Shown piece after piece: positions 56,760 to 61,055 of a stretch of DNA of 64,000 nt. The DNA lies in NCBI GenBank assembly GCA_013695765.1, contig JACCZW010000014.1, positions 1 to 64,000 of the forward strand. The letters run 5' to 3'. The notes beneath the pieces are model-generated. The model was not told the DNA's origin and ran no database searches. It saw only the letters and a list, made by a program, of their open reading frames with translations. Each line of letters starts with the position of its first letter. Position 1 is the first letter of the stretch. Origin of the DNA: Gammaproteobacteria bacterium. GTDB lineage: Bacteria > Pseudomonadota > Gammaproteobacteria > JACCYU01. Both the position numbers and the translations under genes were made by a program.

Positions 56760-58040
56760 TTACACGAAACTCGAAAACGGCAGCACCTCGACCTCACTGC
56801 CCGGTTCGACGTTGCCATTCTCCATCGGCAAAAAGATAAAGCAGTTGGCTGATGCCATCGACGTTAAAACCCCGGAGCCCTGTGCGCCGGTTTTGCGCAC
56901 GGTTAGCTGCCCGTGTTGGTCGCGTTCCACCATGCCGCGCTGATATTCGACCCGCCCCCGACGCTTTTTGAGTTTCGAACCGCAGCGCATTTTGAGCGTC
57001 AGCGGCGGTAACGGCGGTGCGCCCATGAGTGCCTGTAGGGCAGGCTGCACGAATATGTAAAACGTCACCATTACCGACACCGGGTTGCCGGGCAGCCCGA
57101 AAAACCAGGCGCCGGCATCATTATCGCCAATGCGCCCGAAGGCGAGCGGTCGTCCCGGTTTCATGGCGATCTTCCAGAAACCGATCTGGCCCAGCTTGTC
57201 CAGCGTGCATTTGACGAAATCAGCTTCGCCCATGGATACGCCGCCGGAAGTAATGACGACATCGGCGAGCCGCGCGGCCTGGGCGAAGGCTTCTTCCAGT
57301 GCTAGCGGTTCGTCGCGAACGACACCCAAATCGATGATGTCCGCGCCTAAACGCGTAAGCATGCCGTGCAAGGTGTAGCGGTTGCTGTCGTAAACGTCGC
57401 CCATCGTCAGCGGCTCGCCGATCGATTTGAGTTCGTCGCCGGTGGAGAAAAACGCGACCCGCAGGCGCCGCCGGACCTTGACTTCGCCGACGCCCAGCGA
57501 CGCGAGCAGGCCCAGATGCGCCGGCAACAGTCGCTGGCCCACGGCGAGGACACGCTCGTCGCGCGCAATATCCTCGCCCGCCGCGCGTACGTTCTGGCCG
57601 CGTTGGTTGTCGGCGCCGATGCGGATCGATTCGCCCTGAACTTCCGCGCGCTCGACGATCACGACGCTGTCTGCGCCGGCCGGTATGGGCGCGCCGGTCA
57701 TGATGCGTACGCAGTTGCCTTTACCACATTCGCCGTGGAACGGTCGGCCGGCCCAGGCCGTGCCGATGATCGTCAGGGTGCGCGCGCCGTCTGCCGGAAT
57801 GTCCGCGCCGCGAATGGCGAAACCGTCCATGGCCGAGTTGGTGTGACCGGGCACGTCGAGTTTCGAGTACACGTCTTCGGCCAGCACGCGGCCCAGCGCG
57901 TCGCGCAAGGCGACCTGCTCGAAACCGTCCACCGGACGTAGCTGCGCGCGCACGCGCCTGGCGGCCTCATCGACGGGCAGGGAATCGGGATCGTAATCGT
58001 CCTGACAGCTTACGGTTGTCTCGATGCGGTTCTGGCTCAT
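56760..58040 (-). CDS. moeA: Molybdopterin molybdenumtransferase MoeA
   Basis: MoeA inserts molybdate into adenylated molybdopterin. The 426-residue protein has GHTNSAMDGFAIRGADI, RIMTGAPIPAGADSVV, the central VITSGGVSMGEADFVK and FGLPGNPVSVMVTFYIFVQPAL, plus a C-terminal domain IV (RRGRVEYQRGMVE). The ATG at 58040 gives the normal length (E. coli 411). It ends 30 bp from the convergent moaE. Confidence 0.94.
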   Translation of the reverse strand: MSQNRIETTVSCQDDYDPDSLPVDEAARRVRAQLRPVDGFEQVALRDALGRVLAEDVYSKLDVPGHTNSAMDGFAIRGADIPADGARTLTIIGTAWAGRPFHGECGKGNCVRIMTGAPIPAGADSVVIVERAEVQGESIRIGADNQRGQNVRAAGEDIARDERVLAVGQRLLPAHLGLLASLGVGEVKVRRRLRVAFFSTGDELKSIGEPLTMGDVYDSNRYTLHGMLTRLGADIIDLGVVRDEPLALEEAFAQAARLADVVITSGGVSMGEADFVKCTLDKLGQIGFWKIAMKPGRPLAFGRIGDNDAGAWFFGLPGNPVSVMVTFYIFVQPALQALMGAPPLPPLTLKMRCGSKLKKRRGRVEYQRGMVERDQHGQLTVRKTGAQGSGVLTSMASANCFIFLPMENGNVEPGSEVEVLPFSSFV

Positions 58041-58183
58041 GCGATTTACTCGGGATAGCGAAGCTCGCCGTTCAATGTCAATTGTAGGCCGTTGTGGCAA
58101 TCGTGCGTTCCAGGCGAGACAAATTCCTATGCCCGCCACGCTGAAGTTAGCCAGCCCGGCGTCGTTGGCGATACACTACGGAC

Positions 58184-58409
58184 ATGGCGGAGTTGGATCG
58201 CGTAAAAGAAAGAATCGGCTGGCTCAAAGTGGTTTTCGCGGTCCTGATGGCGACCGACATTACACTCTCGGCTGGTTGGCGCAGAACTATAATATGGCGA
58301 GCGATTTCCAATCATTAATGGCGTTTGTGGCGGTAATCGTCGTCACGGCCGGCGTGGTCTGGATTAACCGATCGCTTTCATCCTCATTGACAAACTGGGA
58401 GAACTTTAA
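58184..58409 (+). pseudogene. Small two-helix membrane protein, two frameshifts
   Basis: From ATG 58184 the frame reads MAELDRVKERIGWLKVVFAV then MATDITL. It then slips by one base at 58267/58268 to GWLAQNYNMASDFQSLMAFV and on to VVWIN, and again at 58370/58371 to AFILIDKLGEL and a stop at 58407-58409. Each slip is a single missing base (CTC(A)TCGGC and AACCG(N)ATCGC). The joined product would be about 75 residues with two membrane helices, like the small VKEEIGWLK-type membrane proteins seen in many genomes (recalled). The restored stop overlaps the next ATG (TAATG), which supports the reconstruction. Confidence 0.7.
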
Positions 58410-58501
58410 TGGAGTGGGTGCCCGTAGCAGCGCTGTTGGTTTTCCTTATCGGGATCGGTCTGATTCTCCGCGAAATCGCCGCGCATAACGACAAGAAATA
58501 G
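58409..58501 (+). CDS. 30-residue membrane peptide, second gene of the small pair
   Basis: This tiny gene starts MEWVPVAALLVFLIGIGLIL and ends with a charged tail (HNDKK): one membrane helix plus a cytoplasmic end. GGGAGAA lies 7 bases before the ATG, and the ATG shares a base with the stop of the preceding broken gene (TAATG). Such coupling suggests the two once formed an operon and perhaps a complex. Function is unknown. Confidence 0.62.
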   Translation: MEWVPVAALLVFLIGIGLILREIAAHNDKK

Positions 58502-58577
58502 CGTAACGCCGCGCGGAACAGGCGCTTCATTAAAATAAACAATGCCTTTAACCCGACGAGTCGGCGAGGAGTGGCAT

Positions 58578-61055
58578 ATGGGGTGGGTAATCTGGATCGG
58601 TTTGATTGCGGGCGCGCTATACGCGCTGGCGCGTACCCGTGCGTCCTTGCGACTCTGGACTGCCGCACTGGCGGCCGCATTGATCGTGCTCGGCGGGAGC
58701 GGTTATCTTGCTTTCCCGCCTGGCGTCGTCCTTTGGGGTATGTGGCTGATCGTGGCCCTGATGAACTTGTCAGGCCCACGACGCAGCGCGTTAAGCGCGC
58801 CGCTGCGCGATTACGTACGGCGAGTGTTGCCGCCCATGTCGCAGACTGAGAAGACCGCCATTCAGGCAGGTGGCGTGTGGTGGGATGCCGAGCTGTTTCA
58901 GGGCGATCCGCAGTGGGACAGATTGCTGAACACGCCGGCGCCGCGGTTTAGCGAAGAAGAACAGGCGTTTATAGACGGTCCGGTCGAAACGCTGTGTCGA
59001 ATGCTAGACGACTGGCAGATCACGCACGAATTGAACGATCTGCCGCCCGGCGTGTGGGCGTTTCTTAAGGCGAACCGCTTTTTCGGCATGATCATCCCGA
59101 AAGAATACGACGGGCACGGTTTCTCCGCTTTTGCGCATTCCACCGTGGTGATGAAAATCACCAGCCGCAGCTGCGCGGCCGCGGTCACGGTAATGGTGCC
59201 TAACTCGTTGGGCCCGGCGGAATTGCTGCTGCACTACGGCACCGACAATCAGAAAAATCATTATCTGCCGCGTCTGGCGCGGGGCGAGGAGATCCCGTGT
59301 TTCGCTTTAACGGGGCCCACCGCGGGCTCTGACGCAGGCGCGATACCGGATTTCGGCTTGGTCTGCCGGGGAGACTACCAGGGCCAAAACGTGCTGGGTC
59401 TGCGCGTCACCTGGGACAAGCGGTACATCACCCTGGCGCCGGTCGCCACCGTGCTGGGGCTCGCCTTCAAGGCCGTGGATCCCGATCACCTGCTGGGCGA
59501 CACGGAGGAACTGGGCATTACCTGCGCGCTGATTCCTACCGATACGCCGGGTGTGAATATCGGCCGTCGTCACAACCCGCTGGAGACGGCATTTCAGAAT
59601 GGCCCCACCAGTGGTGCAAATGTGTTTATACCGATGGACTGGATCATCGGCGGTCAGCCGCAGATCGGGCGCGGCTGGTCGATGCTGATGGAATGTCTGT
59701 CGGTAGGTCGCGGCATCTCGTTGCCGGCGCTGGGTACGGGTCTCGGCAAGCACGCCAGTCGATCTGCGGGCGCCTACGCGGCCGTGCGCAAACAGTTCGG
59801 ACTTCCGATCGGCCGCTTCGAAGGCGTGGAAGAAGTGCTTGCGCGCATCGGCGGGTTGACCTACATGATGGACGCCGCGCGGCTGCTCACCGCCGCGGCT
59901 ATCGATGCCGGCGAAAAGCCGTCGGTCGTGTCGGCGATCGTCAAATATCACAATACCGAGGCCATGCGACAGGTAATCAACGACGCCATGGATATTCACG
60001 GCGGGCGCGGCATTTGTCTGGGTACGCGCAATTATCTTGCCTCCGGCTACAAGTCCACACCGGTCAGCATCACGGTCGAGGGCGCGAATATTCTGACCCG
60101 CGGTCTGATTATCTTCGGGCAGGGCGCGCTGCGCTGCCATCCATACCTGGTCCGCGAGATGGACGCGGCCGGCGACCCGGATCGCGAGGCGGGCCTGGCC
60201 GCGTTCGATCAGGCGTTGTTCGCGCATCTGGGTTACGGCGTACGCAACGCGGCGCGCGCGCTGCTTTACGGGCTGACAGAGGGCCGGCTCGCACCGGCGC
60301 CGGTCGATGCGCCGACCACGCGTTATTATCAGCATGCGGCGCGCTTGAGCGCGGCCTTTGCCGTGATCGCGGATGTGGCGATGCTGCTGATGGGGGGCGC
60401 CCTCAAGCGCAAGGAAAAACTGTCAGGACGTTTCGCCGATGCGCTCGGCTGCCTGTTTCTCTGCACCGCCGCGCTCAAGCGTTTCGAGGACACCGGCAGG
60501 CCGCGGGCCGACCTGCCGCTGGTGGAATGGGTCGCGCAATATTGTCTTTATCGCGTGCAGGACGCGCAGGATGGCATTCTGCGCAACTTCCCCTCGCGCG
60601 TACTGGGCGTGTTGCTGCGCGTGCTGGTGTTTCCGCTGGGGCGGCGCTTTCGCTATCCGGGTGATCCGCTGGGTGCCGAAATTGCCAATCTGCTGCTGAC
60701 GCCATCGGAGGCTCGCGATCGCCTGACCGCAGGCATTCATATCTCTTCGGATTCGAACGATGCGGCGGGGCGCATGGAATATGCGTTGCAACAAACGATA
60801 GCCATCGCGTCCGTGGAACACAAACTGCGTGCCGCGCGCATCAAACCACCGTCGTATGGCTATGGCGACGAATGGCTCCATGCGGCCGTTGCAAGCGGCA
60901 TCATCACCACCGCCGAGGCGGCGCAATATCGCACCGCGCAGCAGGCGGTCATGGAGGCGATCAAGGTGGACGATTTTCCGCAGACCCTGAACGAAGATTC
61001 GCAGGCGCCGCCGCAAGGGTCAGTCCGGGCATATTCCGGGCAGGCATGGTCATGA
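58578..61055 (+). CDS. fadE: Acyl-CoA dehydrogenase FadE
   Basis: FadE makes the first oxidation of fatty acyl-CoA, using FAD. The 825-residue protein (E. coli 814) has two N-terminal membrane helices, the acyl-CoA dehydrogenase core with FFGMIIPKEYDGHGFSAFAHS, ALTGPTAGSDAGAIPD, KYHNTEAMRQVINDAMDIHGG and ILTRGLIIFGQGALRCHPY, then the extra DUF1974 C-terminal region. I chose the ATG at 58578 because GAGGAG precedes it by 6 bases; another ATG lies at 58542. It overlaps the next gene by four bases (ATGA). Confidence 0.94.
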   Translation: MGWVIWIGLIAGALYALARTRASLRLWTAALAAALIVLGGSGYLAFPPGVVLWGMWLIVALMNLSGPRRSALSAPLRDYVRRVLPPMSQTEKTAIQAGGVWWDAELFQGDPQWDRLLNTPAPRFSEEEQAFIDGPVETLCRMLDDWQITHELNDLPPGVWAFLKANRFFGMIIPKEYDGHGFSAFAHSTVVMKITSRSCAAAVTVMVPNSLGPAELLLHYGTDNQKNHYLPRLARGEEIPCFALTGPTAGSDAGAIPDFGLVCRGDYQGQNVLGLRVTWDKRYITLAPVATVLGLAFKAVDPDHLLGDTEELGITCALIPTDTPGVNIGRRHNPLETAFQNGPTSGANVFIPMDWIIGGQPQIGRGWSMLMECLSVGRGISLPALGTGLGKHASRSAGAYAAVRKQFGLPIGRFEGVEEVLARIGGLTYMMDAARLLTAAAIDAGEKPSVVSAIVKYHNTEAMRQVINDAMDIHGGRGICLGTRNYLASGYKSTPVSITVEGANILTRGLIIFGQGALRCHPYLVREMDAAGDPDREAGLAAFDQALFAHLGYGVRNAARALLYGLTEGRLAPAPVDAPTTRYYQHAARLSAAFAVIADVAMLLMGGALKRKEKLSGRFADALGCLFLCTAALKRFEDTGRPRADLPLVEWVAQYCLYRVQDAQDGILRNFPSRVLGVLLRVLVFPLGRRFRYPGDPLGAEIANLLLTPSEARDRLTAGIHISSDSNDAAGRMEYALQQTIAIASVEHKLRAARIKPPSYGYGDEWLHAAVASGIITTAEAAQYRTAQQAVMEAIKVDDFPQTLNEDSQAPPQGSVRAYSGQAWS

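Follow-up and report, generated by a model that had tools for sequence, protein, structure and literature searches.

A two-gene family of candidate membrane microproteins and its decaying copy in a gammaproteobacterial genome

Towards the end of the window, by which we mean the whole stretch of 64,000 nucleotides of gammaproteobacterial DNA that was analysed, lie two minute overlapping genes, the first of them broken (Table 1). The question raised by this locus is whether they belong to a real gene family and, if so, what such a pair would do.

The window copy and its lesions

Read from its ATG at 58184, gene 1 opens as MAELDRVKERIGWLKVVFAVLMATDITLS... and continues from about 58267 one frame over as GWLAQNYNMASDFQSLMAFVAVIVVTAGVVWINR; after a second frame shift near 58370 it ends in ...LIDKLGEL-TAA, with the TAA at 58407-58409. 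The last A of this stop codon is the first A of the gene 2 ATG at 58409 (a TAATG overlap), and gene 2 is an open frame from there to 58501 (MEWVPVAALLVFLIGIGLILREIAAHNDKK). An earlier note, made from the letters of the window, had proposed a first gene degraded by two single-base losses, coupled by TAATG to an intact second gene with a good ribosome binding site. The reading frames at 58184-58501 and the GGGAG just 5' of the gene 2 ATG bear out the second part of this proposal, and the first is confirmed by alignment to the syntenic copy in a congener (G001), against which both breaks are seen directly as single-base losses; an HMM built from intact relatives likewise matches the two gene 1 pieces in different frames. 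The module is also spanned, out of register, by a 154-codon frame (window 58024-58488) that an annotation might mistake for a single protein.

The flanking genes, which from sequence knowledge we take to be moeA and a FadE-like acyl-CoA dehydrogenase gene, enclose the pair in the same order in the window and in G001, and in a third related genome (G002) the pair adjoins the same acyl-CoA dehydrogenase gene. The G001 copy has an internal deletion in gene 1 and a TGA at codon 3 of gene 2, while gene 1 of the G002 copy carries a duplication and a frameshift. As three related genomes have the pair at one site, each with lesions of its own, the window copy is a decaying, pseudogene-stage remnant. 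Window and G001 differ at codon positions 1, 2 and 3 by 1, 0 and 7 nucleotides in gene 2 and, over 34 codons of gene 1, by 2, 0 and 7, and since these differences fall mostly at third positions the decay looks recent.

Table 1. Features of the module copy and its surroundings, in window positions
Feature	Position	Strand	Remark
Gene 1, helical-hairpin membrane protein (predicted), about 75 codons, broken	58184..58409	+	Two single-base losses near 58267 and 58370
Gene 2, single-helix membrane peptide (predicted), 30 codons, open frame	58409..58501	+	Relatives present in every complete module
-10-like box TACACT, starting 12 nt 5' of gene 1 ATG	58172..58177	+	Conserved in five aligned subfamily members
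GGGAG, Shine-Dalgarno-like site of gene 2, within gene 1 tail codons	58397..58401	+	
moeA (presumed), divergent neighbour	56760..58139	-	True start probably nearer 58040; same neighbour in G001
Acyl-CoA dehydrogenase (FadE-like, presumed), neighbour	58542..61055	+	Same neighbour in G001 and G002

Relatives, pairing and protein anatomy

Short translated searches revealed paralogues in the genome of the window (G000), with intact copies at C19, C26:36142 and C125 and broken or rearranged ones at C14 (the window), C26:39453 and C23, as well as an intact pair in G001. Further afield, a gene 1 profile search identified carriers in 16 of 369 gammaproteobacterial genomes, and a scan of named genome contigs yielded 49 loci that span Gamma-, Beta- and 'Delta'-proteobacteria, Binatia and an Acidobacterium, among others, with carriers including Nitrosomonas mobilis, Methylococcaceae, Salinisphaera, Kushneria and Hydrogenovibrio. 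The distribution is patchy: in a phylum-wide sample of 398 the carriers were the window genome and one other, 12 of 85 members of the order of Salinisphaera carry the module, and further sampling of relatives by order gained few extra copies.

The gene 2 ATG lies 2-6 nt after the gene 1 stop in all 36 complete copies with downstream DNA, and the homologous pairs on which the earlier note had made its reading depend, with gene 2 conserved beside gene 1, do therefore occur elsewhere. In these copies gene 2 has 26-32 codons, with one of 44, and follows the pattern ME(I/W/L), hydrophobic stretch, DA(A/T/V), basic residues. Close pairing holds in divergent subfamilies too; a second subfamily, to which the window copy belongs, combines a 'RVKEEIGWLKVVFAV' gene 1 with a 'MEW..' gene 2. 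Both genes are under purifying selection (dN/dS 0.04-0.38), differences at codon positions 1/2/3 amounting to 143/59/389 and 63/22/161 for the two genes, and we are virtually certain that the family and its pairing are real. In the sources searched the pair is an undescribed family: neither gene matched a curated profile over the cut-off in Pfam, NCBIfam, PHROGs or PADLOC, in agreement with the earlier view that such pairs are rarely annotated, and a literature search found no description of this membrane microprotein pair. Two loci (L055, L057) hold a more remote variant of the pair (gene 1 ..FHEKMFFAALA.., gene 2 ..YLAWDSY..) in the same order and with an overlapping start, possibly a sister family, and in one complete genome several gene 1 copies or fragments lie within a few kilobases near repeated TAGCAAGACGGGGTCAGGTCGATAAT (L123, G322:C1:2745000-2764000).

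The AlphaFold model of gene 1 is a helical hairpin (helices 3-35 and 41-74, pLDDT 92.7), and a PDB fold search returned no significant match, only generic helical hairpins. In gene 1, positive residues gather at the two termini (means 2.9 and 3.3) and not in the loop (0.44), and in gene 2 they gather at the C-terminus and not at the start; by the positive-inside rule, this distribution suggests that both gene 1 ends and the gene 2 C-terminus are located in the cytoplasm. We envisage a gene 1 product of about 75 residues with two predicted membrane helices and both ends probably cytoplasmic, and a gene 2 product of about 28 residues that would have one membrane helix and a basic C-terminus after a conserved DA motif. 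Gene 1 shares its two-helix hairpin architecture with SLATT / DUF4231 (Pfam), to which it scores E = 0.015 and 16.2 bits, below the gathering score of 24.7, and is shorter (75 residues versus 103 profile positions). Gene 2 is comparable to KdpF, CydX and AcrZ, small accessory subunits of membrane complexes and single-helix peptides of about 28-50 residues that act with a larger partner, but here the partner has only 75 residues and the pair appears mobile and dispensable.

Of 57 copies, 40 have a -10-like box no more than 50 nt upstream of gene 1, compared with 21 in shuffles, and in 8 copies, the window included, the box starts exactly 12 nt before the ATG; this clustering at one position has a p of about 0.0005 after correction. 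The module on a Campylobacter plasmid has TATAAT at -12, the same spacing, and at the window copy no convincing -35 box was seen. As a box at -12 would start the message at or beside the ATG, a leaderless message is predicted, and from these position statistics the module appears to bring a promoter with it, often at a spacing that suits leaderless mRNA. GGAG, GAGG or AGGA precedes the gene 2 ATG within the gene 1 tail in 32 of 36 copies. We propose that the module would be transcribed from its own promoter, in many cases as a leaderless message, and that gene 2 would be translated by coupling, from the Shine-Dalgarno site inside gene 1.

Carriage by integrons, plasmids and prophages

When all loci were compared, the homologous DNA between unrelated sites was the module only, about -75 to +335 at widest, and the common DNA unit measures roughly 320-400 nt with unrelated flanks. 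The neighbours comprise 142 frames over 65 Pfam families, with HicB-like antitoxins the commonest (4), and as the neighbouring genes vary the module is self-contained; a fixed conserved neighbour gene is ruled out by the same spread.

It is very probable that the pair constitutes a mobile unit and that integrons are involved. A home-made attC scan detected 28 attC-like sites compared with 1 in shuffled sequence, and attC flanks the module or is carried in the relatives L035, L077, L082, L083, L088, L092, L094, L101 and L115; by the same scan, a recognisable attC is absent at most module copies. In two Methylococcaceae loci (L088, L092) the module stands in an array of 91-nt attC sites together with HicAB and PEP-CTERM cassettes, in L094, L096 and L115 the homology begins at the GTT of the cassette edge, in Endozoicomonas (L101) closely similar attC-like sites lie on both sides of the module, and on a contig of the window's congener (L035) an attC within a four-site array ends about 60 nt upstream of it. 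Of the 16 module carriers, 11 have the integron integrase IntI, compared with 129 of 353 non-carriers (Fisher p = 0.011); none scored above the cut-off in the window genome, and it is absent also from G001 and G002. At the window copy the search found no attC, only GTTAGCC at 58146, which lacks a partner arm. Single cassettes have been described to insert at secondary (attG) sites (Loot et al. 2024, as cited in PMC11023631), and such an event would be one possible route for the window copy.

Two further observations concern the surroundings of individual copies. In L092 a tyrosine recombinase lies next to an IS91-like transposase, and in G001:C164 (L015 / L037) an intact module belongs to an island of tiny genes separated by repeated GAAAGCCCCTCGCGGGGAGGGGCTTTC hairpins, which also holds a RelE-like gene and coiled-coil membrane proteins with EFRTATKAD repeats.

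With the congener protein as query, searches of plasmids and phages gave no match, and neither did two viral-contig scans; a more typical member as query reached the Campylobacter plasmid, and the protein of that plasmid led on to a second plasmid and Helicobacter prophages. A complete module is carried by two cryptic plasmids, pN29710-2 of C. coli (3.7 kb), on which gene 2 occurs twice in tandem and whose annotation is limited to replication, hypothetical and mobilization genes, and pRGF00013 (3.6 kb). Prophages of Helicobacter canis carry it too; in one of these the annotation lists both genes as hypothetical proteins, at a distance of one gene from a vapC. On the 3.7-kb Campylobacter coli plasmid (L155; NC_022348.1, 3469-3696 and below, minus strand) the module is unannotated, and the two tandem gene 2 copies are joined by TAAATG. 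In the proposed scheme, integrons would spread the module as a cassette, and small plasmids and prophages would carry it as well.

Possible functions of the pair

The manner in which copies decay bears on what the two products might do. Gene 1 is broken with gene 2 intact in about 17 copies, and the reverse is seen at most once (L149, in which gene 2 is shortened). Gene 1 is lost and gene 2 open in the window, L003, L064, L048, L051, L114, L066, L083, L106, L107, L113, L115, L150, L154, the G002 copy and BK070056/57. L034 (G000:C23) and L040 (G001:C7) have a gene 2 homologue, MVWVPIVALTVLVVSLLIVVRDAAAHSRE, with no gene 1 before it; in G000:C23 the truncated beginning of a gene 1 is situated about 670 nt away. 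Given the gene lengths, the asymmetry corresponds to p = 0.0045 for 17 to 0 and p = 0.026 for 17 to 1, values that are approximate, as losses were counted by eye, events are few and some copies are related. Loss of gene 1 first fits what is expected if gene 1 were the toxin and gene 2 the antidote; the asymmetry is modest, and such a pattern would also arise if gene 2 were useful by itself and gene 1 dispensable.

Mobility as a unit, an own promoter, carriage by tiny plasmids and gene 1-first loss give indirect support to a toxin-antidote function, an idea raised in the earlier note, which we consider only slightly less than evenly probable. The gene 1 product would perturb the membrane, and the gene 2 peptide would hold it inactive by helix packing. 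Integron toxin-antitoxin cassettes carry their own promoters, while other cassettes usually have none (PMC11023631). Toxin-antitoxin gene cassettes of chromosomal integrons, for example of the HicAB, HigBA and ParDE types, resemble the pair in consisting of two small coupled genes with an own promoter and in their cassette mobility, patchy distribution and several copies per genome, and the pair also sits beside HicAB cassettes; in contrast to them, it consists of two candidate membrane microproteins, without a DNA-binding antitoxin or an RNase. That both partners would be membrane proteins, unlike in type II systems, speaks against a toxin-antidote function, and the pair matched no toxin, defence or phage family profile over the cut-off in Pfam, NCBIfam, PHROGs or PADLOC. 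The type I and type V membrane toxins TisB, Hok and GhoT are, like the products considered here, tiny hydrophobic proteins with one or two helices. Their partner is an antisense RNA or a cytosolic RNase, whereas here it would be a protein with its own membrane helix, and no sequence match to such toxins was obtained in the libraries searched.

The pair may instead be accessory cargo that forms a small membrane complex without toxicity, with gene 2 as the small subunit and a role in stress response, as a transporter regulator or in phage defence; we judge this serious contender somewhat short of an even prospect. Strict pairing and strong purifying selection suit any obligate complex, and integrons carry many cassettes with other functions, phage and antibiotic resistance genes having been reported in them (PMC12690207). 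However, the own promoter, the tiny-plasmid carriage and the gene 1-first decay suit an addiction-type pair better, and a defence-type complex is disfavoured by the lack of a PADLOC match, in a library limited to described systems.

Small type I membrane toxins are similar in size and shape to a 28-residue single-helix peptide with a basic tail, and by this analogy gene 2 might be the toxin and gene 1 the antidote. We regard such a reversal of roles as improbable, since gene 2 is intact in about 17 copies with a broken gene 1, the window included, and a free toxin should not persist so. That the open frames arose by chance, or that an intact gene was misread in the sequencing of the window assembly, is most improbable: the two lesions are read in a single assembly only, but the three independent breakages at one site favour real decay over read errors, and purifying selection on both genes and intact homologous pairs with the same junction in dozens of genomes place the window pair far beyond chance.

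Returning to the toxin-antidote function, a new kind, in which a one-helix peptide would hold a two-helix toxin inactive, both being integral membrane microproteins encoded on a leaderless message, and in which integrons, cryptic plasmids and prophages would spread the pair, is a tentative proposal that we would sooner doubt than believe. Apart from this, the pair represents a widespread, selected two-gene module, the second gene of which is short enough to escape annotation easily. Should its function turn out to be that of a membrane toxin with its antidote, or of a defence cassette, it would add a protein-in-membrane antidote mechanism and help to explain part of the large store of integron cassettes of unknown function.
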